From Thioalkalivibrio sulfidiphilus (GTDB lineage: Bacteria > Pseudomonadota > Gammaproteobacteria > Ectothiorhodospirales > Ectothiorhodospiraceae), in contig NZ_KB898921.1 in NCBI RefSeq assembly GCF_000377945.1, positions 62,001 through 126,000 on the forward strand: DNA of 64,000 nt. The letters run 5' to 3'. Below are positions 7,679 through 52,256 of the stretch, one piece after another. A program made the position numbers and the translations under genes. How positions within the stretch are numbered: position 1 is the stretch's first letter; each line of letters opens with the position of its first letter. The notes under the pieces were generated by a model. It ran no database searches, was not told the DNA's origin, and was given only the letters and a program-made list of their open reading frames with translations.

Positions 7679-7689
7679 TGATGCGCGCC

Positions 7690-7938: not shown

Positions 7939-7947
7939 GGACTTCCT

Positions 7948-12328: not shown

Positions 12329-12353
12329 GAGCCGCATTCCCGCTTGGGGTGTG

Positions 12354-12650: not shown

Positions 12651-12712
12651 CCCCGAGCGGTCCGCAAGGGACCCGAAGCACGGAGGGCCGCCCGGTGAAG
12701 TCCGCCCTGTCT

Positions 12713-16764: not shown

Positions 16765-19828
<3,064 letters not shown>

Positions 19829-36556: not shown

Positions 36557-36632
36557 TCCCCGGTAGCTCAGTCGGTAGAGCGGGTGACTGTTAATCACTA
36601 GGTCGGCGGTTCGAGCCCGTCCCGGGGAGCCA
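36557..36632 (+). tRNA. tRNA-Asn (GTT)
   Basis: 76 nt including an encoded CCA. Acceptor TCCCCGG pairs with CCGGGGA, the T-loop GTTCGAGCC is standard, and the anticodon loop CTGTTAA places GTT at 36590-36592. The 3' part from 36586 is the attachment site of a 15-kb element; the gene itself stays intact. Confidence 0.97.
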
Positions 36633-36634
36633 AA
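36586..36634 (+). other. attL-type core in tRNA-Asn (49 bp)
   Basis: The 49 bases from the anticodon stem to 2 nt past CCA are repeated without mismatch at 51804-51852. This restores the tRNA 3' end after integration and marks one border of the element. Confidence 0.95.
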
Positions 36635-36652
36635 TAAAACAAGGGCTTACGA

Positions 36653-36675
36653 AACCCGCCTCAAGGCGGGTTTTT
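36653..36675 (+). terminator. Hairpin terminator after tRNA-Asn
   Basis: AACCCGCC-TCAA-GGCGGGTT followed by TTTCG. It lies inside the element and now ends the tRNA transcript. A near-copy stands at 52027-52049. Confidence 0.85.
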
Positions 36676-36679
36676 CGTT

Positions 36680-36699
36680 GGGTCACAGAATAGTCACAG
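36680..36699 (+). repeat. Candidate integrase arm-type site, left
   Basis: GGGTCACAGAATAGTCACAG. The identical 20-mer is at 51652-51671 beside the integrase gene, and a one-mismatch copy is at 52053-52072. The position inside both ends of the element fits arm-type integrase binding sites. Confidence 0.65.
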
Positions 36700-36823
36700 C
36701 AGTGGTCAGGGTCTGCCCGCAGTCTGCTTACTAGCCTTCTACACTTCCCAACGGGCCGCCTTCGCCAACCACAAGTCGCGATGCACCGATCAGGGAAGTC
36801 AGCGCACCGCGTTGGCGGCCCTC

Positions 36824-37085
36824 TCACCCCAGCACCCGGCGGCGGTTGAATACGCCCCAATCCCTGACCTGGTAACGTCCTGTCGTCGGGCTGGATGTTT
36901 CGCGGGACCACTCGATGCCGCACCCCGTAGTCCTCGCGCATGGCGTTGAAGGAGCGCCTCAGCGTTGCCCGGCTCACGCCCAGCTGCAAGGCCAGCTCGT
37001 CGGCGGTCGCCCATGGGTCGGCGTGGATCAATCTAAGCAGGGCCAGCACAAGCGGCCCCGACGTGCCCTTGGTCCTGTAAGTCAC
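36824..37085 (-). pseudogene. Frameshifted helix-turn-helix regulator
   Basis: A GTG at 37085 with GGAGGGG about 10 nt upstream starts VTYRTKGTSGPLVLALLRLI, followed by an HTH segment DELALQLGVSRATLRRSF. After ...REDYGVR the frame drifts into junk running back through the tRNA complement. Shifting by one base at about 36921 restores IEWSRETSSPTTGRYQVRDW, then GVFNRRRVLG and a stop at 36824. One extra G explains this. It could be a genuine mutation or a sequencing error. Confidence 0.65.
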
Positions 37086-37590
37086 CGCGCAACCCCTCCA
37101 GTCGGTTCGTGCCCGAGGATAGCGCAGGGGGTGGCTCACCGCATGAGCCCGCACAATCCCGCCGACCATCCCGACCCGCACCACCAGGGCGTGGCAGTCC
37201 CGGCGCGGGCTGCGGGCTGATTCAGGGGGGGTCGGCAATGGTGGGAACGTTTATTGCTTGGTGGAACGGTAATTGCATTAATGCACAAATTATTCCATCA
37301 AGCATAATTCGGGCCAAACAAGCCTGAACGGCACCCGGGGTCAGGGGGTCGGCGTTGCGCTCGAGCAGACCCGCAGCCCAGGCGCGGCGAGGCCTTCACG
37401 CAGGGCCGTGGCAACCGCCGGCAGTCGGGGTCGGTGAGACCTCCCCAGCTGGCTGGCAAATGCTGCCCAAGAGCAGCATTTGGCAACGGCCGACAGTTGG
37501 GGGGGGTGAGTCTCCCTGGTGATTAACTGCTAACCGAACCAGAATTGGCAGCTCCCAAGAAAAACCCCGGCACATTGGCCGGGGTCTGGT
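37086..37590. other. Gene-poor end of the element
   Basis: Contains the upstream region of the HTH gene and an AT-rich stretch near 37250-37320 with imperfect dyads (ATTGCATTAATGCAC) that could be a regulator binding site. Candidate ORFs here are Pro/Arg-rich and unconvincing. Confidence 0.45.
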
Positions 37591-37782
37591 CTACTCCAGC
37601 CCATGCGGGCCAGGCGGATCAAGGTCTCGAGGGACCAGTAGTGCCAAATCCTTGACCAAGATCCGAACGCCCGGGCCGGTGATGCGCCAGAAGTTCCGAA
37701 GCCGCTCCAACCGTAGAGCCTTGCGCCTCTTGATGCTGGCAATGATCGCCTCGCGGCGACGCTCGGCGGTGGCAGGCTTCAT
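37591..37782 (-). CDS. Small basic hypothetical phage protein
   Basis: 63 residues, MKPATAERRREAIIASIKRR, strongly basic and helical at the start. Its ATG overlaps the upstream gene's stop (ATGA), supporting real translation. No family recognised. Confidence 0.55.
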   Translation of the reverse strand: MKPATAERRREAIIASIKRRKALRLERLRNFWRITGPGVRILVKDLALLVPRDLDPPGPHGLE

Positions 37783-38075
37783 GCGTTACTCCATCTGAGG
37801 CATAACGCCTTCCCAATGCGGCGGCATAGCTTTTTGGGGTGCTCCGCGACGATCAGCCGGTGCCAGTGGGGCAGGAGCGTGATTTTCGACCACACCAACT
37901 CACCACAACGATGATACCGGACCACCGGATAAACAAGCTCAGGCTGGATCCGGATGCTTTGTCCAGAGGGGCCCTTGACTGTGATGGGCGGCACGATGCG
38001 GCGCCTCTGAATTCGCTGACCGAAGGCGTCTGGCGTGGACAGCGTCACAGGTGGGCGGGTTTTAGGGTCGGCCAT
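37779..38075 (-). CDS. Hypothetical phage protein
   Basis: 98 residues from the ATG at 38075 (MADPKTRPPVTLSTPDAFGQ). It overlaps the gene before by 14 nt and the gene after by 4 nt. Beta-rich in appearance with PELVYPVVRYHRCGELVWSK; possibly a small tail or morphogenesis protein by position downstream of the tape measure. Not recognised. Confidence 0.55.
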   Translation of the reverse strand: MADPKTRPPVTLSTPDAFGQRIQRRRIVPPITVKGPSGQSIRIQPELVYPVVRYHRCGELVWSKITLLPHWHRLIVAEHPKKLCRRIGKALCLRWSNA

Positions 38076-38340
38076 TCTCGTTCTCTTGGGCAACCCAACG
38101 GCGATATGACCTGAGCGGATCATCCACCGCGTGCCGTCGCATTTCGCGGTTAATAGAATCGAGCGATCCGTACACATCTTCGGGTGTAAGCGACGAAATG
38201 ACCACAAGCTCAGCTATTGCGTGTGCGAACGCCACCATGGCTTGGCTAGGTGACACCTTTTTCTGCACGTAAAGTTCAGCGACTTCTGACAAAAAATCCT
38301 GCACCTCAGAGTCGTAGGGCTTGCGTGTAGACGCACTCAT
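38062..38340 (-). CDS. Hypothetical phage protein downstream of the tape measure
   Basis: 92 residues from the ATG at 38340, which overlaps the tape-measure stop (ATGA). Helical and acidic (DSEVQDFLSEVAELYVQKKV). No domain recognised. Tight coupling to the tape measure suggests a tail-assembly role, which is inference. Confidence 0.6.
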   Translation of the reverse strand: MSASTRKPYDSEVQDFLSEVAELYVQKKVSPSQAMVAFAHAIAELVVISSLTPEDVYGSLDSINREMRRHAVDDPLRSYRRWVAQENENGRP

Positions 38341-40499
38341 CACCGCCTCCCGTGCTTGAGCGATGCCAACGCCAGAACCCTCTGCACGTGGTCGATCTGG
38401 TCGTTAGTGCCCGAGAGGGTGAAGGAGTCACCGCTCGGCAGGTGGATGTGTACTGGCGTGCCGCCACCGCCAGCGCCCATCACCGGACTCGGCACGGACG
38501 GCACGCGCAGGTTGTTCACCAGGCCGCCGTTGGCGAACTTCGGCAGGCGCATCATGCGCAGGCGCTCCAGGTATTCCAGCCCGTAGTAGCGCACCGCGTT
38601 GGCCGGCAGTACGTACTCACCATTGGACAGCCGCGCCAGGATCGAATCTGAGCGCGAGCTGCCGGGGCCGCGGATGAAACCGCCCGAAGCATAGCCGGGG
38701 GTGCGGTTGCCGCCGCTCTCCAGGGCCTGCACCACCACCGGCACCTGCACCGGCTTGAGCGCGAATTGCTGCTGGAGCAGCTCCCGCAGGGCGTCGGCGT
38801 TCTCCACCGCGCCGGCCTCGTCGAAGGAGATCTCAAGGTTGGAGAGTTCGGCGGCCTGCTCGGTGAGTTCGCGGATCTTGTCCTGGATGGCCTCCAGCCG
38901 GGCGGCGGCCTCGGCCTCGCGGCCTGCGCCGATGCCTTCCCACACCCGGGCCACCTCGCCAACCAGGCGCTTCATTTCGAGGCTGGAGAGGCTGCCCTCT
39001 TCCTTGGCCCTGCGCAGGCGCTCCTCGAGACGCTCGGCGCCCTTGGCGGCGGTATCCCAGTCGCCGGACTCCAGCGCCCGCAGCAGCTCGGGGAATTCCC
39101 GGTATAGGGCCACTACGTTGGCCGCGGCGCTTTCCTCTGCACTGGCCCCGGCAAACTCCTGGCGCAGATCGGCGGCCCGCTGTTCCAATTGCAGGCGTTC
39201 GCGCTGGGCCTGCTCGAAAGCACGGTTGGCTTCGCGGTAGGCGTCTACCTGCTGGCCCAGGGCGCGCTTGATGTCGTTGGTCTCTTGCAGCTTGATCTCA
39301 GTCAAGGCGCTGGCACTCTGCCTTTCTTCGCGGTCGCGCTCAGCCCGATCACTGATCATCAACCAATAGATGTCGGCGAGCTCGCTCCTCTCCATGCGCA
39401 AGGCATCGATGCGCGCCTGAATCGCCTCATCGCTGGCCCAACCGCCGATCAGGTTGGGGTCGGTAGTCAGGCGCATGGCCCGGGGCCGGCGCAACAGCGA
39501 CTCCAGCTTGTTCAGCTGGCCGTCGATCTTGCGGATTTCATCATCCAACCGCAGGAGACCATCGGAGGGGCCGAACAGCACCAGGTTCAGCCCGGTGACG
39601 ATCTGCGCGGCCTTGCCGAATCCTGAAATCAAGGCGCTGGTGATGTTGTTGATGGCATCCACCACCATGGGATCCTGCAGCAGGCGGGTGAGCTCCTCCA
39701 CGGAATCCTTGGCATCATCGAGACCGCTCTTGGCTTCCAGAAGATCGCCGAATGCGTTGCGCAGCCCCGTCAAAGCGCCGCCGAACGTGTCACGTAGGCG
39801 CCTCGCTGCGCCGCCATATCGCGTCGCCAGTTCATCGAGGATTACCCGCTGCGCGCCGGCCAGGTCGCCCATCTGTATCAGGGTGCGTATGGTGTTCCTC
39901 TGCTCATTGGTGAACTGCACGCCAGCGCGGGAGAGAGCCGAAAGGCCTGCGATGGGATCATTCAATGCGCGGCCCACCTGCTGCGCGGCGCTGCGCAGGT
40001 CCATGTTCATGGCGGCAGCCAGGTCGGTGACAGCCTGGGTCGCCTCTCGAAACATGTCGGCGCCCTGGATTCTGGTGAAGCTCAGGAGCACGGATTGCGC
40101 GTCAAGAATGGCCTCGTCGCCAAAGGTGGTGATGTTCTGAAACTCGCCGGCCATCTTCGCCAGTTGGTCCGCAGTGACGCCAGCGGCACCGCCTGTGGAC
40201 TTGATGCGGGCCTCAATGTTCGCCATGGCCCGCTCCTGGGCAATCGTGGCATCGAGAATACCCTTGATGGAGACTCCGATGCCGATGGCGGCCAGCACGT
40301 TGCGGAAGGTTCTCCCGGCACGGGAAATTCCCTGCATGCGGCGCTCGACTTCTTGCAGGCTGCGCTGCAGGTCAACCATGTTTCGGGCGGACTCCTGGCC
40401 GGCGCGGCCCACGCCGCCGATCTCGCGCCGTGCATTGCGCATCTCGCGCACAGCTTGTGCGATGTCGGCGCGCAGCTGAATGGCTATGGATTGATCCAT
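38340..40499 (-). CDS. Phage tail tape measure protein
   Basis: 719 residues, start supported by GGGAGG about 8 nt upstream. Long helical N-terminus (ADIAQAVREMRNARREIGGV), a short hydrophobic segment (VLAAIGIGVSIKGIL), a lambda-type central domain (AGEFQNITTFGDEAILDAQS), extended coiled coil from 370 to 560, and a glycine-rich end with the GYASGGFIRGPG and LSNGEYVLPANAV motifs typical of siphovirus tape measures. It sets tail length and aids DNA ejection. No tail tube, chaperone or tip genes accompany it, which is unusual. Confidence 0.9.
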   Translation of the reverse strand: MDQSIAIQLRADIAQAVREMRNARREIGGVGRAGQESARNMVDLQRSLQEVERRMQGISRAGRTFRNVLAAIGIGVSIKGILDATIAQERAMANIEARIKSTGGAAGVTADQLAKMAGEFQNITTFGDEAILDAQSVLLSFTRIQGADMFREATQAVTDLAAAMNMDLRSAAQQVGRALNDPIAGLSALSRAGVQFTNEQRNTIRTLIQMGDLAGAQRVILDELATRYGGAARRLRDTFGGALTGLRNAFGDLLEAKSGLDDAKDSVEELTRLLQDPMVVDAINNITSALISGFGKAAQIVTGLNLVLFGPSDGLLRLDDEIRKIDGQLNKLESLLRRPRAMRLTTDPNLIGGWASDEAIQARIDALRMERSELADIYWLMISDRAERDREERQSASALTEIKLQETNDIKRALGQQVDAYREANRAFEQAQRERLQLEQRAADLRQEFAGASAEESAAANVVALYREFPELLRALESGDWDTAAKGAERLEERLRRAKEEGSLSSLEMKRLVGEVARVWEGIGAGREAEAAARLEAIQDKIRELTEQAAELSNLEISFDEAGAVENADALRELLQQQFALKPVQVPVVVQALESGGNRTPGYASGGFIRGPGSSRSDSILARLSNGEYVLPANAVRYYGLEYLERLRMMRLPKFANGGLVNNLRVPSVPSPVMGAGGGGTPVHIHLPSGDSFTLSGTNDQIDHVQRVLALASLKHGRR

Positions 40500-40747
40500 T
40501 GAGTTCTACCTCCCAAACCGTCCAAGACTTCAATAAACTGCGCCCCGATTAATCCGGGGCCGTCGATGGTTCGTCGGACGCACCAACGCCTGCCATGCCC
40601 TCCGAGCTAAAGTGCCTACCGCGTGGGGTCAGGTCTTCCACCGCAGGCGGTCGGTTTGCAGAGGCCGGGGACCGACGACCCCGGGGTTGGTAGGTAGGTC
40701 GCCGAGGGCCAATCCGTGACCCGGGCACACCACCTGACGGCCCAGCA

Positions 40748-41389
40748 TCAACAAGCGCGTGCCTCTCGCAGGTGATGCGCCATGGCAGAATCGCAACACC
40801 CGCGTTGGTCGATCTCCGATGCGACCCGCATCACCCAATCCCATGTTTCGTCATGCGTCAGCATCCAAAGGGTGTGTCTCCACGCGAGCCACAAGGGCCC
40901 GCCATGATGCTCCGGCCAGCCGAACGCCAGAAAGCGAGACGCGTTCTGAAGGTCCGGATAGTCCTCGAGATGGGGCCATCCAACTACCTCATCCACGCAG
41001 TCATGGAACAGTACCTCCGCAGCGAGTCCGGCCATGTACACGGCGGCTCGATTGAGCGCCGCCGGTCTCCAGAACTCCGGGTCCGGCAAAACAGGCGGGT
41101 GATCGATCATCCCGCCCGCAGCGCTGACTCGCTTGCCGCTGCGCCATGTCTCCACTGCGCCCGAACCAGTGGGGGAAACCCTCGCCACGTACTGCGTGTC
41201 CCGCGAGTCCCTATCCACCTTGAGTGCCAGCACGAGGTGCGCGGCCTCATGCACGGCAACCGTCATGCTGTTCCGGGGATAGACCGGCCAGGAGGGTTGC
41301 CTGGGAATCGCAGCCGTGGCGAGTTCCATCGTTGGAGCAGTGAACCGCCATCTCGACGCGCGTCGCGCTGCATGACTTGGCGCTTCCAT
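40748..41389 (-). CDS. Phage-encoded HEAxH putative metallopeptidase
   Basis: 213 residues from the ATG at 41389, 2 nt after the upstream stop. The core is VAVHEAAHLVLALKVDRDSR (H47, E48, H51), a zinc-protease motif in the style of the FtsH peptidase domain or M41-like phage proteins. A later acidic stretch (EDYPDLQNASRFLAF) could give the third ligand. It lies between a coiled-coil protein and the tape measure. Processing of morphogenesis proteins is possible but not shown. The next 250 bp to the tape measure have no gene. Confidence 0.7.
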   Translation of the reverse strand: MEAPSHAARRASRWRFTAPTMELATAAIPRQPSWPVYPRNSMTVAVHEAAHLVLALKVDRDSRDTQYVARVSPTGSGAVETWRSGKRVSAAGGMIDHPPVLPDPEFWRPAALNRAAVYMAGLAAEVLFHDCVDEVVGWPHLEDYPDLQNASRFLAFGWPEHHGGPLWLAWRHTLWMLTHDETWDWVMRVASEIDQRGCCDSAMAHHLREARAC

Positions 41390-41390
41390 T

Positions 41391-41975
41391 TCAAAAATCA
41401 ATGCCCGCTTCCCGGGCCTCATTGACGAGGGCCGCGATCTTCGCGCTTAGGCCCCGGATCTGATCGTCCAGTTCCTGCAATCGTGCGGACCTCTCCGCCA
41501 TCGGCAGACCCACCTGGTCAGGGTAAGGCATGCTCTCCATGATCTCGCGCAGACGCTGCTTGATCACGGTCGGGCCCAGCAGGCCCATGAGCGAATGGAT
41601 TTTCGCCCCTTCCATGTAAAGGCGTTCGCCAACGAACGGGGCTTGATTTCTCAGCACGCCCCCTCGGATGTCTTCGTCTCCGCTGATCGAGAGCGGGTTG
41701 ATGACGACGTTAGGTGAGTCATACAAACGCCCAGGATCTGACAGACTGAGCAGGGCGAGTCTGACCCGTTCTTCGTAGGGCTCCTGCCAGTGGTCAATCA
41801 GCGCTTCCATCCGCCGGATCGCATCTTCCCGGGGGATCGGCAGGTGCCTGACTTCCTCTCGTTCCCGCATCAGGGTTTCGCGTTGGGACTCCAGGCTATC
41901 GATCTCTGCCTCGATGTCATTGCGAAATTTTCGGATGGATTCGAATGCTTTAGCCAATGTGCTCATGATCTGCAT
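41391..41975 (-). CDS. Coiled-coil hypothetical phage protein
   Basis: 194 residues with coiled coils at both ends (FESIRKFRNDIEAEIDSLES; LQELDDQIRGLSAKIAALVN) and a central PNVVINPLSISGDEDIRGGV. A second Met at residue 4 is an alternative start. Nothing else in the window resembles it. Position between terminase and tail genes suggests a structural or packaging accessory. Confidence 0.65.
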   Translation of the reverse strand: MQIMSTLAKAFESIRKFRNDIEAEIDSLESQRETLMREREEVRHLPIPREDAIRRMEALIDHWQEPYEERVRLALLSLSDPGRLYDSPNVVINPLSISGDEDIRGGVLRNQAPFVGERLYMEGAKIHSLMGLLGPTVIKQRLREIMESMPYPDQVGLPMAERSARLQELDDQIRGLSAKIAALVNEAREAGIDF

Positions 41976-42079
41976 GCCTCATCTCTCTGGCTTGTGGTTC
42001 GTGGAATTCTTGTGCTCCTGACTGCATTAAGCGGAGGCCCGCCGCTGAAGTACTCACGAATGACGCAGGGGAGTGATCC

Positions 42080-42580
42080 TCACTTTTTGGCGAAAGTGAG
42101 CAATTCACTTTTCTGACCTACATCTTGGTTGGTTTCCTGCAAAATCTGAACAGGCTGGATTTCCATGCCTTTGAGAATGTTTCGAAGCTGCTCGGGTGTG
42201 GATGGGAGAGGGCCAAGGCGCCGAGCATTGAACAGGCATGACCTGAGTTCAGATGCGTCTTCTGGTGCGGCCACCAATGTGCGCCACCCCACCCAGATGA
42301 TGGCCTCGAAGCGGTTGATCTCCTGACTCAACGCCTTACAGCGGGCCCACGGCGTGTTGCCTTCCACCTGGCGCATGGCTCGGCAAAGCCAAAAGTTGCG
42401 GGCAGCCTCTCTCGCGCGCCGCCCCTCGGTGCCGGCCAGACCGATGGCTTCTCGCGGATCATCGCCACATAGGAGTGCCGAGACGCTGCGCTCCAGGACT
42501 GCACGCACGTCCCGGTCGGGTATTCGGTCCACGTAGCGGGCGAAACGCTCAAGCGCCGATATGGGATCGGGTAGGCTCAC
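42080..42580 (-). CDS. Hypothetical phage protein after the Mor-like gene
   Basis: 166 residues from a GTG at 42580 overlapping the Mor-like stop (GTGA). Helical, starting VSLPDPISALERFARYVDRI, with CLFNARRLGPLPSTPEQLRN near the end. No domain recognised. Translational coupling supports it. Confidence 0.6.
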   Translation of the reverse strand: MSLPDPISALERFARYVDRIPDRDVRAVLERSVSALLCGDDPREAIGLAGTEGRRAREAARNFWLCRAMRQVEGNTPWARCKALSQEINRFEAIIWVGWRTLVAAPEDASELRSCLFNARRLGPLPSTPEQLRNILKGMEIQPVQILQETNQDVGQKSELLTFAKK

Positions 42581-42918
42581 AGCACCCAATCCTCCTTACC
42601 CAAGCCGGCGCCGTGCTTTCGGGGCCGCCCCTTGTTCTCCTGGCGGCGCCAGCGATAGGTCGTGCTTGGATGTACTCCGACCGCCTTTGCAGCAGATTCG
42701 GGGCTCGCGCCTTTTCGTATCATGTCGAGCGCCTGGCGGCGGCGATGGTTGGCTAGGCAGGGTATGTAGGGCCGTTCGCCGCCAAAGTCGGTGCGCACCC
42801 GCAGGTCAACGCGGCGCGCGATCTCATCGGAGATTTCATTCGGAACACCAAGCGCGACGCACGCCGCACGGATCTCCTCGGTGATGGTACTGAGGATAGT
42901 CGGGTCGTCGGCGCTCAC
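42577..42918 (-). CDS. Mor-family transcriptional activator-like protein
   Basis: 113 residues from a GTG at 42918 that overlaps the terL stop (GTGA). EISDEIARRVDLRVRTDFGG, then ERPYIP, matches the Mu Mor/C activator dimerisation region, and PESAAKAVGVHPSTTYRWRR is a C-terminal HTH. Mor activates middle or late genes in Mu. Location just after terL is unusual. Its tail GLGKEDWVL closely resembles the terL tail GLGREDWTL. Confidence 0.8.
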   Translation of the reverse strand: MSADDPTILSTITEEIRAACVALGVPNEISDEIARRVDLRVRTDFGGERPYIPCLANHRRRQALDMIRKGASPESAAKAVGVHPSTTYRWRRQENKGRPRKHGAGLGKEDWVL

Positions 42919-44996
42919 AGCGTCCAGTCCTCGCGCCCCAGGCCGACCCACGATCGGCGCTTTCTCTTCCGGGGTGCGACAGGCTTTTCCTGCGTCACCT
43001 TCGGATCAGGATCACGGGAGGGCCTGTTCTCCTGCGTTGGGCATCTGGAGAAAAGATCTGATTGCAGGGTCTGGCGCTCCAGTCGCTCCCACTGCCCAGG
43101 CGTCCATGTATGCACCTTCAGGGCACGTGCGGCATGCAGGGCATAGATCTCGCAATCCAGGAACTCATTGGGTCGTCCAGCCTTCTTCTGCCAGACCAGG
43201 CGATTCCTATGCCGCCTGGAAGGCGCCTTGACTTCGGCGGACAGGTGGTCCCAGTAATCGGCCCGAACGTCGCGGTACACATGGAAACGCCCAGGGCCAT
43301 TACCCGAGAGGCGCAGCCGGCCGGCACGCTCATCGCCGCCCAGCAGCAGATCCTTGGCTTTGTTGACCCCGACTATGAACACCCTCAGGCCCCATCGATC
43401 GGCCTTGGTGGGCGTGCGGTGATCCACGGTCCTCGGCAGGCTGAAGATCTCGCGCTCCATATTCCGGTCGCTGGAGCCCTTCACGGGCATGATGGTCACG
43501 CCCGGGTACCGGCGCTTCATGTCTCGCACCCAACTGTATACCAGGTCGCTGGTGACGCCATCGCCGGCATCGATGGACACGGCCTTGGCGCGGGCCTCCT
43601 GGCCACTCGCGCGCTGGAACGCACCAAAGACTGTCTGCTCCAACTCCTGCCATACGGGATCGGTCTTATCTGTCACCGTGCCAAACAACTCGGCAGCGTA
43701 CACAAGCCAGGACTCTTCCCCACGCCCCCACGCGCGCACCACCAACGCGAAGCGGTTATGCTGTACGTCCACGCCCACTGTCAGCACCAAGCCGCCATTG
43801 GGTACCGTGCGCTCGGGGTAGTCCAGAGCAAGGGCCTCGAGCTCTTCGCGCGGTAGCTGGCCCTCCCCGAATTCATACGGGAGCCCCAAGACTGAATTCC
43901 AGAAGGCAACCAGCTCGCCGGAGTCGCCCTGCGCCGCCTTATGCTTCGCCTGCAGGTATCGACGCACCAAGTTCGACATGCGGGAGGCGTCCCAGCTGAC
44001 ATAGAGCTCCGAGAGGTAGTATCCGGCTACGCCCTCAAAGGGCTGCGTAGCTCGCCATCTGCGTTCCCGAACGGCGCGCCGAACCGCCTCGTTCTTTTGG
44101 TGATCGTCCCAAGTGGCGCCGCAGTGCGGACAGACATAGAAGGCCGTCTCCGGTAGGGCGTGACCATAGACCTCGTGGTTATGGTCAGGATCCTCCCGCC
44201 AGCGTACGTTGCCCCAGTCAAGCACGTGCTCCTCGCCGCAGTGCGGGCACGGGACGAACAGCTTGCGCTGGTCGGAGTTGAGATAGGCCCATTCGATGGA
44301 GCTCAGGCCCTTGAGGGTCGGCGTGCCGCCATAGACAATCTTGGCGCTCGGGTGCGTCTTGGCGCGATCCTCCAGCAGGCGGATGGAATCGCCCTGGCCC
44401 TTGAGATCCCGGCTTGCATCGTCGGGCTCTTCAACGATCAGGACAGGTGCCGAGGATGACTTCACGCTGCGAGGTGAATTCGACCCGACGAACTTGAGAA
44501 ACCCTCCCGCGAATTTCTTGAAGCTCCAGCGATTGCCGCTTCGCCGCGTGGTCGAGACATCGATCTTGCCATGCAGGCGTGGGGTCACGTCGACCGTCGG
44601 GATAAACTTCTCGACGTTGAACTCCTTGGCGGCTTCCATCGTCGGGAACATTACCACGATGGGTGATGGGTCCAGGTCGATACGGCGCAGGATGTAGGGC
44701 ATCACGACCCCTGCGGTCCAGCCGATCTGCGCCGACTTCATGACCACCAGCTTCTTGATGCGCGGATCGTCTACCGCCTCCTGGATCTCGCGCAGCCAGG
44801 GCGTCACCTGGCTGCGGTACTTGCCGTGCCGCGCAGCGCCGGAGTCCGCGGACAGGTACATGAACTGGTCGGCCCACTCCCGGGTGGTCATGCGCGGTGG
44901 TGGCGCCCAGCAGCGCCAGACCCGGGCCAGCAGTCTCCGGGCCACTTTTCGGGTGTCCAGGAACTCCGGGACCTGTGCCATGGGGTTGCCGCTCAT
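42915..44996 (-). CDS. Phage terminase large subunit (GpA family)
   Basis: 693 residues of the lambda GpA type. An N-terminal segment REWADQFMYLSADSGAARHG precedes the ATPase region (KKLVVMKSAQIGWTAGVVMP, Walker A-like) and Walker B LIVEEPDDA. Zinc-knuckle pairs CPHCG occur twice (near 250 and 290). The RNase H-like nuclease part starts LVLTVGVDVQHNRFALVVRA. It cuts and translocates DNA into heads, yet no head genes are encoded beside it. Overlaps terS by 4 nt. Confidence 0.93.
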   Translation of the reverse strand: MSGNPMAQVPEFLDTRKVARRLLARVWRCWAPPPRMTTREWADQFMYLSADSGAARHGKYRSQVTPWLREIQEAVDDPRIKKLVVMKSAQIGWTAGVVMPYILRRIDLDPSPIVVMFPTMEAAKEFNVEKFIPTVDVTPRLHGKIDVSTTRRSGNRWSFKKFAGGFLKFVGSNSPRSVKSSSAPVLIVEEPDDASRDLKGQGDSIRLLEDRAKTHPSAKIVYGGTPTLKGLSSIEWAYLNSDQRKLFVPCPHCGEEHVLDWGNVRWREDPDHNHEVYGHALPETAFYVCPHCGATWDDHQKNEAVRRAVRERRWRATQPFEGVAGYYLSELYVSWDASRMSNLVRRYLQAKHKAAQGDSGELVAFWNSVLGLPYEFGEGQLPREELEALALDYPERTVPNGGLVLTVGVDVQHNRFALVVRAWGRGEESWLVYAAELFGTVTDKTDPVWQELEQTVFGAFQRASGQEARAKAVSIDAGDGVTSDLVYSWVRDMKRRYPGVTIMPVKGSSDRNMEREIFSLPRTVDHRTPTKADRWGLRVFIVGVNKAKDLLLGGDERAGRLRLSGNGPGRFHVYRDVRADYWDHLSAEVKAPSRRHRNRLVWQKKAGRPNEFLDCEIYALHAARALKVHTWTPGQWERLERQTLQSDLFSRCPTQENRPSRDPDPKVTQEKPVAPRKRKRRSWVGLGREDWTL

Positions 44997-45499
44997 TCGT
45001 CGCCCGCCTCTTCTTCAAGGTCCGCCAGATCAAGCGTCTCATCCGAGTCGTCATTCTCCGGAGGCTGCTCGGAAAGCTTGCTCAGGGTGGCATCCACGGC
45101 GGCCGCATAGATCTCGGCATCCGTCTCCAGGCCGTAGCGGCTGTCGATCTCCGCTCGCAGCCGATCCGCCCAGGCTCGGAACTCTGCACGTGCAGCCAGG
45201 ATGGCTCCGGACCAAACCGGTTCAATGTCGGCAACGGCAACCAGGTTGCCCGCGTCCTTGGCAAGCTTGATCTCCAGCAGATCCCCCTCGAGACGATCGC
45301 GCCGCTCGCGCGCGGTCTCTCGCTTCTCGCCAGCCAGGGCGCGCTGGATCTGCCACTCGATCACCTGCGCGGTGTCGTACTGGTTCGATCCGCCGCGGCC
45401 GGCGTTGAGGACCATCGGCAGGCCTTCGCGCTGCCAGTCGGTGAGCGTCCGCTCACTCACGCCTAGGATGTCAGAGAGCTGCTTCTTGTTGACGATCAC
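44993..45499 (-). CDS. Phage terminase small subunit (Nu1-like)
   Basis: 168 residues. The N-terminal winged HTH MIVNKKQLSDILGVSERTLT, then DWQREGLPMV, is typical of Nu1/gpNu1-type small terminases. The middle RRDRLEGDLLEIKLAKDAGN is the assembly helix and the C-terminus is acidic. It recognises the cos site and delivers it to TerL; cos should lie close by, probably within 45500-45928. Confidence 0.88.
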   Translation of the reverse strand: MIVNKKQLSDILGVSERTLTDWQREGLPMVLNAGRGGSNQYDTAQVIEWQIQRALAGEKRETARERRDRLEGDLLEIKLAKDAGNLVAVADIEPVWSGAILAARAEFRAWADRLRAEIDSRYGLETDAEIYAAAVDATLSKLSEQPPENDDSDETLDLADLEEEAGDE

Positions 45500-45724
45500 T
45501 TCAGTGCCTCAGAACAAGAATGGAAAAGTTCATGTAACCTACTGAATCTACTAGAAAGGAAGCCTATAGAGACCTTGGCGGTGGGCGGAAAACGCGGTTT
45601 GGATTACCCGCGTGCGCGACTCGTCGGAAGGACCCGCAACACTCCAGTGACTGGGGCTGCCTGCACACGGTGGCCCTGGCAGACCGCGCGGCGCTTCATG
45701 GCAATAGCGCGCAACCGCACCATC

Positions 45725-45752
45725 GCAAATCCGGCCCATGGGCCGGATTTGC
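45725..45752. repeat. Perfect 28-bp palindrome upstream of terS
   Basis: GCAAATCCGGCCCA at 45725-45738 and its exact complement at 45739-45752, with no loop. It is about 225 bp upstream of terS in otherwise gene-free DNA. Options: cruciform-type terminator, protein-binding site, or part of a cos/pac recognition region. Confidence 0.8.
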
Positions 45753-45801
45753 CAGCCTCCTGGCGCACCCTCTACGAACTCACGCGGTGTGACATCCGGG
45801 A

Positions 45802-45912
45802 GGGGTGATGGGGGCGATGGGGGGACGATTCCCCGCTCATCTATTTTTTTTGTCACTGACATTTTTTCGCGCGTATATATAAACATCACCCCTATTACCC
45901 CCCATCACCCCC
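45802..45912. other. Candidate replication origin of the element (iteron-like repeats around an AT-rich core)
   Basis: GGGGTGATGGGGGCGATGGG (45802-45824) faces inverted copies of the same G-rich unit (45884-45912, CATCACCCC and CCATCACCCCC). Between them lies an AT-rich stretch (45841-45883) with T runs and TATATATA. It directly follows the 3' end of the helicase gene, as the P4 origin follows its alpha primase/helicase gene. Confidence 0.5.
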
Positions 45913-45928
45913 AAGAGAGGGAAAGGCA

Positions 45929-47593
45929 TCACACAGTAACGACACGCCACCCGGCCACCTTGGCGGGGCCGTAGCGGGCCTCGCTCTGCAACTGCAGCCC
46001 GTCTGCTATCCGACCCCGGTACCGACGTAGCGCGTAGCCTAGCCGCCTGGCGTCTACTCGATCCCCGCAAACCTGGCGGACGGCATCATGGAGAGCCGGG
46101 TGATCGTAGGCATAGCCGTCGCCTGCATATCGGGGGGCGCCCCGAGCTGCATCGTCGATGATGTCGGCCGCCGTCACAGTACGGTCGCCATAGGTTTCTG
46201 CCATCGCGGTGAGCAGCGCCACCATTGCGGCGCGGTCCGGATCATCGTTCCTGATGTCGGCCGTAGGCCCTAGCGGATCGTCAAGGCCGGCCCACACCAA
46301 CGGACGGCGTACGAGGCGATCCCAGTCGTGGAATCCACCCAGCGGGGACACGGGGACGACGGGACAGCCTGCACGGTGGTAGGCGACGGTCACGGTTATC
46401 GCTGCGGCTATGAGCTCCGACCGGCTGTGCAGGAGATCGGCCAGAATGTCACCCTCGTACTCGCGGGTCTCGGGGCGCTCCAGCTTCGCGTCAATGCGGA
46501 TCATCATGACCCGCCGAGTCAAGTCGCCGCGAATCACCAGGTTGTTGCCGGTTGCTGCCAGCGCCGTGCGTGAGGGCACTCGTACAGGTGTAGACGTGCC
46601 GAGGGGCCGTATCGACAGCCACGGCTGCGTGATCGCCTGGCATAGCAGCTCATCCCCGAGAGGGGTCTCTACATTGTCCGCGACCAGCGGGCTATCCCCC
46701 GCGAGCAAGCCCGCGGCTAGGCGCTTGCCGGCCTCGGTTGGGTCCCGGCCCAGGGATACCACCGCCGCACGGCGCCCGGTCGCAATGATCGACCCAGCAT
46801 CAACGAGGAGTGACTTGCCGGTTCCCGGTGTCGGGGCGGTCACACAGGCCATGGGGACGGCATCGACCGACCGTGCATACAACATCGTCATGATCATCGC
46901 CACGGCTGCAGAGAGGTCACCGCTATCCACATACGGCCACGAACTAACAGCAGCAGCCAGCGCGCGCGCAGATTCCACGGCATTTTCATGGGTGGGTGTT
47001 GAGATGAGCTCAACCTGCGGAGAACCAGGCACCAGGTAGAGCCCAGTCGCCTCGTCGTAACCCGGGGCAGTGATGGGGGTGCCGTCCGCGCGCACGGTCG
47101 GTGCTTCGATGTAGCCTATAAGCTCGCGAAGTGACCACCGCCCGCGATCGATCAGGGCGGCGGCCACGGCCACGGGACAGTCCACTGGGCGCATTGCCTG
47201 AGCTCGGGCATCATATCGCAGCCACTGCGCGGCACGGGTCAGGACTTCCCGGAGGTGGATCGGTGTCACGGGCACCAAGCGCGGCGCACCTTCGATGCGT
47301 CTTACAGAGCTGCGGCGTCGCGATGGATCCGTGTGACCGATCGCCACCAGGCGGCCACCCGACTGATAGATGTCGCAGCCCTCTGCGAGGAGCGCATCTT
47401 CTGCAGCATCCACAATGGCCGGGAGCTCTCCGGACTTGATCTCGATGACAGGGCGTTTGCGCTCTCCCGGATCTTTGCCGCGGGGCACGTCGAGGTCCAC
47501 CGTCTGGCCGATGATTTCCGGTTGGTCACGGTAATCGTTCACGTCCTTCTGGCCTTCTGGGCCTTTCGGTAACTGAACACGGCGGACGGTCAT
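45929..47593 (-). CDS. Phage-type P-loop ATPase/helicase
   Basis: 554 residues from the ATG at 47593, which overlaps the primase stop (ATGA); a much longer frame upstream is the shadow of the primase gene. Walker A is APTPGTGKSLLVDAG near residue 250, Walker B-like is SPLVADNVETPLGD, and an arginine-rich segment GDLTRRVMMIRID may contain the arginine finger. The C-terminus has a winged-helix look (DARRLGYALRRYRGRIADGL). With the upstream toprim primase it forms a two-gene replication module, comparable to the single P4 alpha protein. Helicase activity is inferred. Confidence 0.8.
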   Translation of the reverse strand: MTVRRVQLPKGPEGQKDVNDYRDQPEIIGQTVDLDVPRGKDPGERKRPVIEIKSGELPAIVDAAEDALLAEGCDIYQSGGRLVAIGHTDPSRRRSSVRRIEGAPRLVPVTPIHLREVLTRAAQWLRYDARAQAMRPVDCPVAVAAALIDRGRWSLRELIGYIEAPTVRADGTPITAPGYDEATGLYLVPGSPQVELISTPTHENAVESARALAAAVSSWPYVDSGDLSAAVAMIMTMLYARSVDAVPMACVTAPTPGTGKSLLVDAGSIIATGRRAAVVSLGRDPTEAGKRLAAGLLAGDSPLVADNVETPLGDELLCQAITQPWLSIRPLGTSTPVRVPSRTALAATGNNLVIRGDLTRRVMMIRIDAKLERPETREYEGDILADLLHSRSELIAAAITVTVAYHRAGCPVVPVSPLGGFHDWDRLVRRPLVWAGLDDPLGPTADIRNDDPDRAAMVALLTAMAETYGDRTVTAADIIDDAARGAPRYAGDGYAYDHPALHDAVRQVCGDRVDARRLGYALRRYRGRIADGLQLQSEARYGPAKVAGWRVVTV

Positions 47594-48396
47594 GCGGCAT
47601 CCTCGATGATCAGGATCTCGCACGGACAGAAGTACACGTCCACGGCGTGAGCCACGGGCTCCATGCGGCCCTTGCCGAACGCGGCAGCGGCAACGGCGTT
47701 GCCGCGGTGCCACCCGAAAACAAAGGTGACCGCGTCTGCCCAGCCCTCCACCACGGCCCACGGGATGTTCGGGTCCTTGGTGTTGCCAAGGATCAGGCAG
47801 CCCTGACTCTTTGAACCAAAGGACTGCTTGGCGCCGGCGGTGTTGATGCACTCCACGCCAACCAGTACGCCGGAGAGGGTTCGCACGGGGATCACCAGGC
47901 AATCCGCATCGCGTCCAACCAGGCGCCCGGTGACCCGACCACGCCCAGCGCCTGCGGCATGGGTGATGCCCTTCTTTTGGGCATAGGGGTGTGAGGCCAC
48001 AGCACGGTCGTCCCGGTTCACGCTCGCCCACAGCTCATGAGCGTATGCCTGCGTCGGTGACGGCTCGGCTGATATCGGTGTCGGTATTTTGGGTGTTGTG
48101 GGGCGCCGGTTAAGGGTGAGCGGCCGGTCAGGCTGCCAGCCGTTTTCCCGGGCCATGTGGACCAGAGTGCCAATGGTGATGGGGCCGTCCTTGATGCTGC
48201 GCCACACGTCCCTGGCGGCCCTGGCGTCGTAGTTATCGGCGGTCTGGCTCCAGCTATCCCAGATCCCAAAGCCATCGTTGCCCAGCTCAGCCTTGACGGC
48301 CATGGCCATGCGGACCCAGGTCTCGCGGTCATGCGCGTCCACGAAACTCAGCATGGCCCGGATCTCGTCTGCCTGGAGATGTTGTGCCGAGCTCAT
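47590..48396 (-). CDS. Toprim-domain primase with PriCT-2-like N-terminus
   Basis: 268 residues. The N-terminal MLSFVDAHDRETWVRMAMAV, then DSWSQTADNY, resembles PriCT-2, which is found in phage primases. The C-terminal half holds the toprim-like parts VVEGWADAVTFVFG (catalytic Glu) and CEILIIEDAA at the very end. The toprim domain normally continues past the second acidic motif, so either the domain is completed by the next gene or the end is short. It overlaps the ATPase gene by 4 nt. Confidence 0.78.
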   Translation of the reverse strand: MSSAQHLQADEIRAMLSFVDAHDRETWVRMAMAVKAELGNDGFGIWDSWSQTADNYDARAARDVWRSIKDGPITIGTLVHMARENGWQPDRPLTLNRRPTTPKIPTPISAEPSPTQAYAHELWASVNRDDRAVASHPYAQKKGITHAAGAGRGRVTGRLVGRDADCLVIPVRTLSGVLVGVECINTAGAKQSFGSKSQGCLILGNTKDPNIPWAVVEGWADAVTFVFGWHRGNAVAAAAFGKGRMEPVAHAVDVYFCPCEILIIEDAA

Positions 48397-48539
48397 TTCT
48401 GCCGTCTGTTCGGCCTGGGCGGCTGGAGCCCGGTCTCGTCGCAGAGGATCTCCATCGCAGCGGCCATCACCACGTTCGTGAGGGTGGCGGCGAGGCGGTT
48501 CACGGCGTCGCTATGATGGCCCCAATAATCTACACTCAT
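48393..48539 (-). CDS. Small hypothetical protein between AlpA-like and primase genes
   Basis: 48 residues, MSVDYWGHHSDAVNRLAATL... with stop and start overlapping both neighbours (ATGA on each side). Too short for family assignment, but the double overlap supports translation. Confidence 0.55.
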   Translation of the reverse strand: MSVDYWGHHSDAVNRLAATLTNVVMAAAMEILCDETGLQPPRPNRRQK

Positions 48540-48751
48540 CAGGCCGCCTCCTGTTCACGCACAGGGATGACCTTACGGCCCTCAAGCCAAGCGTCCACGT
48601 CTCGCTTGCGGTAGAGCACGCGATGGCCAGCTTTGATATATGGGGGGCCCTTGCCCTCGTTTCGCCAGCGGATCAGGGTGCGGGGGGAAGTGTGGATATA
48701 TTCCGACGTCTCGTCAGTTTCGGCCAGGTAGTCTCGCGGCTTGTCGTGCAT
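48539..48751 (-). CDS. AlpA/excisionase-like helix-turn-helix protein
   Basis: 70 residues from the ATG at 48751 with GGAGG 8 nt upstream. TDETSEYIHTSPRTLIRWRN, then GHRVLYRKRDVDAWLEGRKV, is the MerR-like winged HTH used by AlpA regulators and excisionases. In P4-like islands AlpA activates int or acts as the directionality factor. First gene before the replication genes. Confidence 0.82.
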   Translation of the reverse strand: MHDKPRDYLAETDETSEYIHTSPRTLIRWRNEGKGPPYIKAGHRVLYRKRDVDAWLEGRKVIPVREQEAA

Positions 48752-48857
48752 GTGATCGCCTCCTATGTCACCTGGAGGCACAATGCCACAACAATAGCGG
48801 CGCACCTTGGATAATGGCGGATAATTTTATGGGGCGGTCAGATCCGCCATAATTTGA

Positions 48858-49526
48858 TTAGCGCCGAAGCGTGTCGGCCACCTCCTGAGGCGATATGTCG
48901 GCGCACAAGAGGATCGATGCGATGCGGGCGACAATCTTGTTGTTTCCATAGCCGGTCCGTATGTCGTCCGTACTCTCGCGGGGCACCCATTCTGAAGGCA
49001 AGCGCTTGCGGATATCCTCGTCATCCCAGATCCATTCAGCCCGCTGGTTCACGATGTAGTGAACTCGTCGGATGATGAAGCGCTTCAGATTTCGCGACTC
49101 GCGGCCAGCTGGTACGGCATCACCCACCATCCAAGATAGATCATCCTGTTCGGCGTCCCGAATTCCCGCTACCAATGCGCGCAGATGGCTCTCAAGGGTG
49201 CATTCGACGGGTGATTCCTGATCTTCGGGCAACTCCAGGACGCGGTATGCGTCAGAGAGTCCCGAGTCTTTCAAGGCGTCGGCAAGCTTTTCGGCAGCGG
49301 CTGCGATCTTTGCCTTGCGTTTCTGAAATTCTGGCCAATTCACAAGGCGAAGCCAGTACTCAATGAGCGAAAAAGCGGCGTCGCTTCCCAATCCTGGGGG
49401 CACGCCGGCCGCATCGAGACGTCGCTCGGCCTCATCCATGAAAAGCCACCACTCGCGCCGGGCGCCAGCCTCCCTTGAGCGCGCGAGTAGCCCATTGAGG
49501 CGGTCTCGATATTCCGTATCGTTCAT
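48858..49526 (-). CDS. Hypothetical protein of the early region
   Basis: 222 residues from the ATG at 49526 with GGAGGTG 7 nt upstream. Helical, with ARREWWLFMDEAERRLDAAG and a central KRKAKIAAAAEKLADALKDS. No catalytic motif or domain recognised. It starts 4 nt after the RadC-like gene. Confidence 0.65.
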   Translation of the reverse strand: MNDTEYRDRLNGLLARSREAGARREWWLFMDEAERRLDAAGVPPGLGSDAAFSLIEYWLRLVNWPEFQKRKAKIAAAAEKLADALKDSGLSDAYRVLELPEDQESPVECTLESHLRALVAGIRDAEQDDLSWMVGDAVPAGRESRNLKRFIIRRVHYIVNQRAEWIWDDEDIRKRLPSEWVPRESTDDIRTGYGNNKIVARIASILLCADISPQEVADTLRR

Positions 49527-49530
49527 CTGC

Positions 49531-50274
49531 CTACACCTCCCTGCAGCCGAATAGTTCGGCCTCTGCAAGCCCAAGGGCAGCACAGACCCGCTCTCTCTGC
49601 TTGCGCTGTGTCGGCATGCTCCGGCCGCTCAGGTAATGCTCGGCGGTCTCTTTGCCGCAGACCCCCATCTCGACCAGGTATTGCACCTGGTGCTGGTGCT
49701 CCCTGTGGCCGCGCGCGATCAGGAGCGCAATCAGCCGGCCCATGAAGGCGTGGCGGGCGGTCCGCCTGGCATCCTCGGGGTCCGGGCGCCAGGGCTCTAG
49801 GCCCAGCCTCTTCATGGAGACGAACCCCTCCTCCCCAAGCACCAGGTGATCGAGCAGTCGCACCTCGATCAACTCCAGAACGTCCCGGATCTTCGCAGTA
49901 ATCCACTCATCAGCCCGGCTCGGTTGCGGATCTCCCGAGGGGTGATTGTGGGCGAGCAGCATGGCGGCGGCGTTGTGGCGCAGCGCAGCCCGGGCCACCT
50001 CGCGCGGGTGAACGGTGGCGGTGTTGATGGTGCCGAGGCTCAGGGTCTCAGGGGCGATCAGTCGGTGCTTGTTGTCCAGGAACAAGCAGACGAACACTTC
50101 CCGTTCTTCAGCCCCGATGTGCAGCCGGGCCAGGGTGGCGGCATCCTCAGGGCAGGTGATCGCCTGTCCCGGGTGCCTGAGTCGTCGCTTGAGGATCGCC
50201 AGGGCCTCATCGATGGTGGCCCTTTCCTGGTGCGTCTCGCGGCGCCGGGCTTTGGTAGAATGGGCAACAGCCAT
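49531..50274 (-). CDS. RadC-like JAB-domain protein with C-terminal HTH-like extension
   Basis: 247 residues. Residues 30-155 are the RadC/JAB fold with the metal motif AHNHPSGDPQPSRADEWITA. Unlike chromosomal RadC it lacks the N-terminal HhH part, and it adds about 80 residues: YLVEMGVCGKETAEHYLSGR, then QRERVCAALGLAEAELFG, resembling an XRE-type HTH. RadC-like proteins are common on islands with unclear biochemical role. It lies between integrase and the early region. Confidence 0.82.
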   Translation of the reverse strand: MAVAHSTKARRRETHQERATIDEALAILKRRLRHPGQAITCPEDAATLARLHIGAEEREVFVCLFLDNKHRLIAPETLSLGTINTATVHPREVARAALRHNAAAMLLAHNHPSGDPQPSRADEWITAKIRDVLELIEVRLLDHLVLGEEGFVSMKRLGLEPWRPDPEDARRTARHAFMGRLIALLIARGHREHQHQVQYLVEMGVCGKETAEHYLSGRSMPTQRKQRERVCAALGLAEAELFGCREV

Positions 50275-50336
50275 GATTGATCTCCTATGCAGATCGGTTG
50301 TGGTTTGCGCAGGATTTGCCAGCCAGCTGGCGCACC

Positions 50337-51599
50337 CTACGCCTGCCGCAATGGCACGACGTTGTCATCCACCGTCCTGCCCTCAATGATGCGATGCAGG
50401 CGGCGCTCCCAGGCCTCCAGGGCGGTGCGTTTCTCCAGGTCGTAGCGGTGCAGATCGTAGACGGCGGCAATGCCTTTGCGGGTGTGCCCGATGGTGGCTT
50501 CTGCGACAGTCTCGGAGACCCCAAGAGCGGCCAATCCGGTGCGGCAGGTGCGACGCAGGTCATGGGGTGTCCAGTGCCCACCCTCAGGCTTGTTCTGGTT
50601 GCCCAGGGCCTCGACAAAGCGCCCCACAGCCCGACCCAGGGCGGCAGTGGTCACCGGGGTCCCGGGTCTTGCTTCGAAGACAAATCCAGCGGCCCGCTTG
50701 CGGCGTTTGGCAAGCCGCTGCCCCTCTGCCCTCGCCTGCTTCAATATCTCAAGTGCGGTGGTAGTCAGCGGGACGGTATGTGACGTGTCGGTTTTGCCGC
50801 GCCTGCTGGCTGGGATGGTCCAGAGGTTCCCATCCACCTCGCTCCAGCTCATGCCGGCCACCTCGCCAGGGCGTTGACCGGTGATCAGAATCAGCTTAAG
50901 CGCCAGGGCGGTCAGGCGGTGCAGTCCGCAGGTTTCGGCATGGGTCCAGAAGTCCAGAATTTCCTGATTGCTCAGCACCCGGGCGCGGGACTTGGGTGTC
51001 ATGGCCTTTGCCACCTTGCGGGGCTTGATGGTGGCGACGGGGTTGGCCTCGATAATCTCCCGATCCTCGGCCCAAGCGAATAACCCCTTCGTGTAAGTCA
51101 GCAGGAGAGCGGCCTGGCGGGGATACTTGTGAGCCAGCGTCTCGAGTACCTCAATCACGTCTCTGCGGCGAACGTCTTTCAGCTTCATTTTCCCCAGCGG
51201 GGGGACAAGGTAGCGCTCCAGGGTGGCGCGGATCGCCGGGCCGGACTTGAGCTTGTCCACGTGGGCAGCGAAGTATCGCGACAGGGCATCTGATAGCGTC
51301 GGCTCATCCCGGTCGGCGCGGCGCTCCTCGAGTATGTCGTGCCCGGCGTCAATCTGTTTCCGGAAGTCATGGGCCTGCTTCCGGGCTGCGGCCAGACTCC
51401 AGGGCTTGGGCCACTGGCCAATTGTCAGCAGCCGGTCGCGTCCGTTCACGTTGTAGCGCAGAAGGAAGGTCACGGTCCCGGCAGAGGTGATACGGACCCC
51501 AAAGCCTCGGGGCGCATCGCGGTGATCGTCAAAGATGATGCGCTTGCCCTTCGCTGGCGGCTCCAGGCGCCTCAGCAATGTATCTGTCAGGGTCGGCAT
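50337..51599 (-). CDS. int: Tyrosine integrase, P4/DUF4102 type
   Basis: 420 residues. N-terminal DUF4102 arm-binding domain (GFGVRITSAGTVTFLLRYNV). The catalytic domain shows LITGQRPGEVAGMSW (first Arg), HDLRRTCRTGL (His-x-x-Arg), IGHTRKGIAAVYD (second His) and the nucleophile tyrosine in DLHRYDLEKR or the adjacent VYD; the alignment decides. It integrates the element into tRNA-Asn. It sits about 200 bp from attR with an arm-type repeat between, as expected for this family. Confidence 0.94.
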   Translation of the reverse strand: MPTLTDTLLRRLEPPAKGKRIIFDDHRDAPRGFGVRITSAGTVTFLLRYNVNGRDRLLTIGQWPKPWSLAAARKQAHDFRKQIDAGHDILEERRADRDEPTLSDALSRYFAAHVDKLKSGPAIRATLERYLVPPLGKMKLKDVRRRDVIEVLETLAHKYPRQAALLLTYTKGLFAWAEDREIIEANPVATIKPRKVAKAMTPKSRARVLSNQEILDFWTHAETCGLHRLTALALKLILITGQRPGEVAGMSWSEVDGNLWTIPASRRGKTDTSHTVPLTTTALEILKQARAEGQRLAKRRKRAAGFVFEARPGTPVTTAALGRAVGRFVEALGNQNKPEGGHWTPHDLRRTCRTGLAALGVSETVAEATIGHTRKGIAAVYDLHRYDLEKRTALEAWERRLHRIIEGRTVDDNVVPLRQA

Positions 51600-51651
51600 G
51601 GGTCAGTCCTCGGTAAATGACCTTCTGTCATTCGGTCTCCGGTTTGATTCC

Positions 51652-51671
51652 GGGTCACAGAATAGTCACAG
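51652..51671 (+). repeat. Candidate integrase arm-type site, right
   Basis: Identical to 36680-36699 (GGGTCACAGAATAGTCACAG), located between int and attR. Confidence 0.65.
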
Positions 51672-51803
51672 TATAGGACTGTATTTCATGGCATACAATG
51701 TCACTTTACGTCACCGAAAAAGTGGACGTAACTACCTGACTCAAAATCGTTATTTCTGAGAACAGCCAGATGTGACAAGGATTCCGGGGTCACACCCTGA
51801 CGC

Positions 51804-51852
51804 GACTGTTAATCACTAGGTCGGCGGTTCGAGCCCGTCCCGGGGAGCCAAA
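51804..51852 (+). other. attR-type core (49-bp copy of the tRNA-Asn 3' end)
   Basis: Exact repeat of 36586-36634, starting in the anticodon stem, so not a functional tRNA gene. Confidence 0.95.
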
Positions 51853-52002: not shown

Positions 52003-52072
52003 GTCGAACCCGTCCCGGGGAGCCAAAACCTGCCGCAAGGCGGGTTTTCGTTGGGTCACAGAATAGCCACAG
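52003..52072 (+). other. Third att-like site with terminator and arm-type repeat
   Basis: TCGAACCCGTCCCGGGGAGC then CAAA (52003-52026) equals the tRNA 3' end with one mismatch. It is followed by the tRNA-type hairpin (52027-52049) and GGGTCACAGAATAGCCACAG (52053-52072). This order copies the left end of the 15-kb element (36605-36699). Confidence 0.8.
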
Positions 52073-52256
52073 CCGTGGGTAAGGGTTATGCCCGCTAGCC
52101 TCTGGCAGGCCTGCTACACTCTCCAGCGGGCCGCCTTCGCCCCGTTAAGTGGCACCATTCCGCGATAGCCGGCCATGAAATTATTGCTTCTCAACTTGCC
52201 CCATCCCCATAATTGTCTAGACGTTTTTGGTCAGTGAACTAATCGAGGCTCGTGAC

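Follow-up and report, generated by a model that had tools for sequence, protein, structure and literature searches.

The 64,000-bp window analyzed here (positions 62,001 to 126,000 of Thioalkalivibrio sulfidiphilus contig NZ_KB898921.1) contains, at 36586-51852, an integrated element of 15.2 kb with terminase and tape measure genes and no recognizable portal, capsid or lysis gene; a preliminary description of this DNA had left undecided whether it is a phage satellite or the ruin of a prophage. The element is bounded by perfect 49-bp direct repeats (att copies at 36586-36634 and 51804-51852, 100% identical), the left one of which is the 3' end of a tRNA-Asn(gtt) gene (36557-36632, plus strand, found with ARAGORN), the integration target. 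Every recognized element gene is on the minus strand, reading from the integrase gene toward the tRNA in the order integrase (Int), RadC-like protein, g241, excisionase-like helix-turn-helix (HTH) protein, PriCT primase, ATPase, small (TerS) and large (TerL) terminase subunits, a second HTH protein with a weak Mor match, g169, g194, g224 (which has a HEAxH motif), tape measure protein (TMP) and g93. The tight gene packing remarked on earlier is real; most gene junctions overlap, by 1 to 53 bp, and 83% of the element is coding.

The element encodes its own terminase, as had been proposed. TerS (44993-45499) is of the Nu1 type (Phage_Nu1, 2.9e-14; phrog_57) and TerL (42915-44996) is of the phage λ gpA type (gpA ATPase, 2e-71; gpA nuclease, 6e-71; phrog_15, 1.6e-200). 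The 719 amino acid (aa) TMP (38340-40499) matches TMP_2 (1.1e-7, above the cut-off), phrog_27166 (1.4e-39) and, in the PDB, the tape measure structures 8zdo (2e-15) and 8iyk (7.5e-5), and many tape-measure PHROGs match it at both its ends, so this assignment likewise stands. It shares 45% identity with its counterpart in a complete Mu-like siphoprophage from the same genus (in genome G044); G044 loci L052/L053 have a TMP near 17706-19647 that is related to that of the window, and there the tmp frame is broken or misassembled. Pfam and PHROGs scans of the element's called open reading frames (ORFs) gave no match to portal, capsid, connector, tail tube, baseplate or lysis families, in agreement with the preliminary description. 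Thus a complete virion gene set is absent, the called ORFs include none of the portal, capsid, connector, tail tube or lysis genes or remnants by which a complete or decayed temperate phage would be known, and no phage-type remnants were found between terL and tmp.

Four genes lie between terL and tmp. The first (42577-42951) encodes the second HTH protein (HTH_23, 8.8e-9), and its earlier description as a Mor-like activator holds for the HTH and is weak for Mor (Pfam Mor 1.8e-4, below the cut-off; 1.3e-4 to a PHROGs late activator); the same gene is found behind TerS in satellite L026 (L numbers denote the loci compared) and behind terL in the complete prophage L027. The second, g169 (42080-42589), is the uncharacterized marker protein of the satellite family described below, and a census with its profile (A2) found it in 7 of 47 genomes of the order and 9 of 369 of the class, the genome of the window being counted in each case. 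The third, g194 (41391-41975), is a coiled-coil-rich satellite protein with homologues in L022, L023, L041, L066 and L067. The fourth, g224 (40748-41422), has homologues in L024, L025 and L030 and precedes the TMP gene in the window, L025 and L030; its profile is rare, occurring in 1 of 368 other genomes of the class and 0 of 398 other genomes of the phylum. The HEAxH motif noted previously is present, and its M41/FtsH resemblance is one of motif only (the family profile matches FtsH chains at E=0.05, and one homologue matches Peptidase_M41 at 1.6e-4), so that a protease acting on TMP or coat would be a guess from the motif alone; a single-sequence fold of g224 was poor (pLDDT 47) and was not used. 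The small g93 protein (38062-38343) follows TMP with an ATGA overlap and has no Pfam or PHROGs match.

The genes for integration and replication are confirmed by their family matches: tyrosine integrase (50337-51599; phrog_1, 2e-60), RadC-like JAB protein (49531-50274; PF04002, 9.1e-43), excisionase-like HTH_17 protein (48539-48805; phrog_66, 3.5e-10; HTH_17, 8.8e-12) and PriCT-2/toprim primase (47590-48396; PriCT_2, 5e-20). g241 (48858-49583) has no PHROGs match and no assigned function. The replication ATPase (45929-47593) starts at an ATGA overlap, and its only family match is to a PHROG family of unknown function (phrog_29234, 9.9e-110). A reading of the primase as broken by a frameshift was rejected, as the two ORFs share an ATGA overlap and are split in the same way in prophage L005; comparison with L005 indicates that its toprim end is short, possibly through shortening rather than frameshifting.

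Several other features were observed in and near the element. Three copies of a motif, TTTGCCAGCC-n-CTGGCG, are present in the element (37443, 45748 and 50315), each in a gap between genes and either adjoining a short palindrome or lying inside one; with two substitutions allowed, the 64 kb has no further copy. These could be regulator, cos or replication sites. Behind the distal att copy, 52004-52141 is a repeat of the element end nearest the tRNA (36611-36766), a relic of an older element that stood in tandem at this tRNA. Farther out are a small gene pair that by eye resembles HicB/HicA (52227-52694) and an IS5-type transposase gene (52954-53997).

Recurrence of the gene set in other genomes

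No tblastn match (E 0.01) to g169, g194, g224 or the HTH gene behind terL was found in 50,697 phage records (INPHARED). A joined query of g169, g194, g224, HTH, g93 and g241 matched, among 47 genomes of the order, the window's own genome and six others. Five of these six loci (L022-L026) are integrated elements of 9-12 kb, and the sixth, L027, shares only the HTH gene. In all, g169, g194 and g224 recur in att-bounded elements, of which L022-L026 and L041 are from the order and L030, L064-L067 and L069-L071 from other families of the class; L068, on a 5.6-kb contig, is uninformative. The ends of these relatives were defined by direct repeats, mostly of a tRNA (those of L022 and L024 are only 14 bp, and their ends are less certain), and their genes were called with a codon-usage caller, which may have overlooked some small genes or given them a wrong start. 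They are 9-16 kb long, share g169 and/or g224, and keep their gene order as modules rather than as one fixed list. The preliminary description had proposed a search for the same gene set without capsid genes as a check on the satellite idea, and what recurs in other genomes is this set in elements without a portal or a full head and tail cluster, a result in favour of a satellite.

The virion parts of the relatives vary, and may be a capsid protein, gpD decoration protein, TMP, tail-tip protein J or TerL. L025 (10.2 kb, same genus) occupies the same tRNA-Asn as the window element, has the same flanking aspartate transaminase and uvrB genes, and encodes Int, Xis, a D5 primase, g169, a major capsid protein (MCP), a coil protein, g224, an 89-aa protein, a TMP and an 86-aa protein. 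The other relatives in the order are L024 (tRNA-Ser; RepA, HTH, g169, MCP, coil, g224), L026 (tRNA-Gln; RepA, TerS, HTH, g169, MCP, coil), L022 (tRNA-Ser) and L023 (tRNA-Asn), both with g169, coil, g194 and TerS, and L041 (tRNA-Met; RepA, TerS, g169, coil, g194, gpD). Outside the order are L030 (tRNA-Glu, 15.9 kb; toprim-helicase, coil, g224, TMP, Gabija defence pair), L064 (tRNA-Pro; TerS, g169, MCP), L065 (25-bp repeat, no tRNA; g169, MCP, coil, TMP), L066 (tRNA-Met; DnaB, g169, coil, g194, λ-type MCP, protease, gpD, TMP), L067 (tRNA-Leu; RepA, g194, J), L069 (tRNA-Leu; ATPase 45% identical to that of the window, g169, protease-MCP fusion), L070 (tRNA-Val; TerL, scaffold-like protein, g169) and L071 (tRNA-Pro; primase-helicase, SSB, g169, MCP). 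The MCPs of L024-L026 match only the coat half of protease-MCP fusion proteins. Thus four relatives have their own TMP (L025, 713 aa; L030, 705 aa; L065, 807 aa; L066, 831 aa); a constraint toward nearly equal length, considered from the 719, 713 and 705 aa proteins, fails with L065 and L066. No portal was recognized in the relatives (74 satellite proteins, with the 25 commonest families listed), and there are no portal-sized unassigned ORFs except two in L070.

Some of these relatives have contents of separate interest. The GajA/GajB genes of L030 (12224-15986) are Gabija cargo of a TMP-carrying satellite, and L022 has pieces of a type I restriction-modification system as cargo (12053-14546). 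The λ J-like tail-tip protein of L067 (5301-7823) would bear on host range. L066 has its λ-type MCP, protease, decoration protein and TMP genes at 2815-8819, with no portal recognized, and the g169 element L070 has at 3423-9294 its TerL and scaffold-like protein with two large unassigned proteins, a gene set that would point to a different helper type.

Satellite, decayed satellite or prophage ruin

The element might be the ruin of a complete temperate phage, in which a deletion between terL and tmp, and another after tmp, removed the head, tail and lysis genes. The TerL protein is 48% identical to that of Marinobacter phage PS3 and 49% identical to that of an Atopomonas prophage, a search of genome contigs with it led to one complete prophage, and in PS3 the portal and head genes directly follow terL (the Atopomonas prophage has large ORFs in the same layout); in addition, the TMP relative in G044 and the HTH gene shared with L027 belong to complete prophages. 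The preliminary description had taken a head and tail cluster at this position in relatives as grounds against a satellite, and PS3 does have portal and head genes there, but the intervening genes of the window are satellite genes and not leftovers. A ruin made by deletion should have phage genes at the scar, and three of the four here (g169, g194 and g224) are instead genes of satellites and not of the phages that share its terL, so a ruin is disfavoured. Its genes are also overlapping and open, its Int and ATPase have their best matches in satellites, an independent satellite of another family (L030) has g224 followed by TMP, and L065 and L066 carry TMPs. We therefore consider a ruin, whether by one deletion as first suggested or by two, very improbable.

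The element has the features by which satellites in general are known: an integrase with att direct repeats, no complete virion gene set, and recurrence at similar size and gene order. The nearest Int (59% identical, L064) and the nearest ATPase found (45% over 508 aa, L069) are those of satellites in other bacterial families, which have a capsid gene and no recognized portal or terL. Only TerL (nearest to complete phages) and TMP (nearest to the G044 siphoprophage) have phage affinities, which is what parts acquired from helpers should show, and the simplest history suggested by these comparisons would be that of a satellite backbone that acquired terL and tmp. It is thus probable that this is an integrated phage satellite, one of a family that targets tRNA genes, and that the element supplies TerS, TerL and TMP and obtains the head and the rest of the tail from a helper.

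A number of observations weigh against this conclusion. The 1.43 kb adjoining the tRNA has no recognized gene, the primase stops short of part of the toprim domain that L005 has, and where relatives have a capsid gene behind g169 the window has a gap of only 104 bp; these three features may indicate partial decay. No copies were found in virus particles or in IMG/VR (a search of viral contigs with TerL, g224, ATPase, TMP and the satellite capsid protein gave a single distant TerL match), no matching helper is present in the same genome, which has no λ-type portal and no second gpA-type TerL, and no close relative was found for a test of purifying selection. Satellites without a resident helper are known (PMC11389934).

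The element could also be a true satellite in partial decay and no longer mobile, whose primase was once intact and which once had, like its relatives, a capsid gene in the interval from g169 to g194. A lone MCP gene directly follows g169 in L024, L025, L026, L064, L069 and L071, so the capsid slot of these relatives is empty in the window, and the short toprim end and the non-coding stretch by the tRNA agree with such decay. However, L022, L023 and L041 have no MCP and yet keep g169, coil, g194 and TerS, L069 apparently has no separate primase gene beside its homologous ATPase, and TerL, TMP, Int and ATPase are all open in the window. We regard such decay as possible but unlikely.

Relationship to known satellites and a possible life cycle

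An intact satellite of this kind could function as follows. Entry or induction of a helper would switch the element on, integrase and HTH protein would move it out of (or into) tRNA-Asn, and the primase and ATPase would replicate the excised DNA once the helper is active, while the HTH/Mor-like protein probably couples late genes to the helper. A siphophage helper would have to provide the head, portal, tail tube, baseplate and lysis functions; TerS and TerL would select and cut element DNA, dock on the helper portal and load helper heads, and helper tail-tube and tip proteins would polymerize on the element's TMP to give a chimeric tail of the element's own length.

This last step is proposed from the precedent of the phage-inducible chromosomal island (PICI)-like element (PLE) PLE11 of Vibrio cholerae, which uses its own TMP, tail chaperone and baseplate hub to build chimeric tails that fall about 10 nm short of the helper's in length, as shown by mass spectrometry, western blot and electron microscopy (PMC12987554). 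PLE mutants without tmp transduce less well, and more so when Rta, which acts against the TMP of phage ICP1, blocks the helper TMP (PMC12987554). Tail assembly is also the target of Tai (PMC11364771), and such attacks by satellites and hosts suggest another role, in which the element's TMP would interfere by competing with that of the helper so that helper tails fail, without being built into satellite virions. We find this improbable, since the satellite TMPs are, at 705-831 aa, of phage-like length (that of the complete prophage L054 has 660 aa) and retain the N- and C-terminal regions, which exceeds the needs of a poison fragment, tails are still required by a satellite whose only tail gene is tmp, and the PLE precedent is one of incorporation. 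An incorporated TMP could possibly let the element escape tail-targeting defences such as Rta and Tai, give it a ruler matched to its partners, or deny tails to the helper.

PLE11 and the window element are alike, by description and not by sequence, in being integrated satellites with their own TMP and no full tail; PLE11 differs in having the tail chaperone and hub and a lytic, contractile-tailed helper, and the available part of its report does not mention terL (PMC12987554), whereas the window element has TerS and TerL and no recognized tail chaperone or hub. Putative tmp genes are also listed there for PLE-like elements and some capsid-forming PICIs (cf-PICIs; PMC12987554, Extended Data Fig. 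10). The cf-PICIs likewise have their own TerS and TerL and some phage structural genes and take tails from a helper, but they are defined by a full head set of MCP, protease, portal, connectors, terminase and HNH (PMC10690885), of which the window has the terminase and none of the MCP, head protease, portal or connector genes. A recognized portal is also never present in the window's relatives. The PICIs of Gram-negative bacteria are small, helper-dependent islands with an att site, int, a small HTH gene, a primase-type rep gene and terS. The window element has the att site, int, primase-type rep and terS, but it also carries terL and tmp (and its relatives MCP, gpD and J), and its HTH protein is HTH_17/MerR-like with no AlpA family match. 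Temperate siphophages with a gpA-type TerL (PS3 and L027) share with it the TerS-TerL pair, TMPs of the same broad families and, in L027, the Mor-like HTH gene after terL, but have a portal, protease, capsid and tail cluster after terL, and g169, g194 and g224 were not found in them.

The earlier suggestion of a new strategy was thus too strong, as satellite TMPs have been known since March 2026 from Vibrio PLEs (PMC12987554) and terminase-carrying satellites are known as cf-PICIs (PMC10690885). What appears to be new is the combination of TerS, TerL and TMP without a head, and a family with à la carte virion parts. The literature outside subscription journals yielded no description of this gene set, of portal-less satellites with a lone capsid, decoration or tail-tip gene, or of terminase plus tape measure without a head (VEIMEs and tycheposons were not among the systems compared).

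Possible part replacement by tRNA satellites

The above relatives suggest, with about an even chance of being correct, that g169, g194 and g224 mark a widespread and undescribed family of tRNA satellites that lives by part replacement, in which each member adds to a helper-dependent backbone a single virion part or a small selection (from coat, decoration protein, tape measure, tail tip and terminase, but never the portal) and hybrid particles are built around the helper portal; the window member would replace the motor and the tail ruler. g169 provides a handle for finding such satellites in genomes. It was only in 2026, and in one Vibrio system, that satellites were shown to control tail assembly (PMC12987554), and the elements described here suggest that the same tail trick arose in, or spread to, other lineages of bacteria and that satellites exchange coat, decoration, ruler, tip and motor proteins independently. 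If this is true, it would become testable which virion interfaces tolerate foreign parts, why a portal is not found in these satellites, and whether a borrowed tail with the satellite's own ruler or tip widens or restricts the range of its particles.

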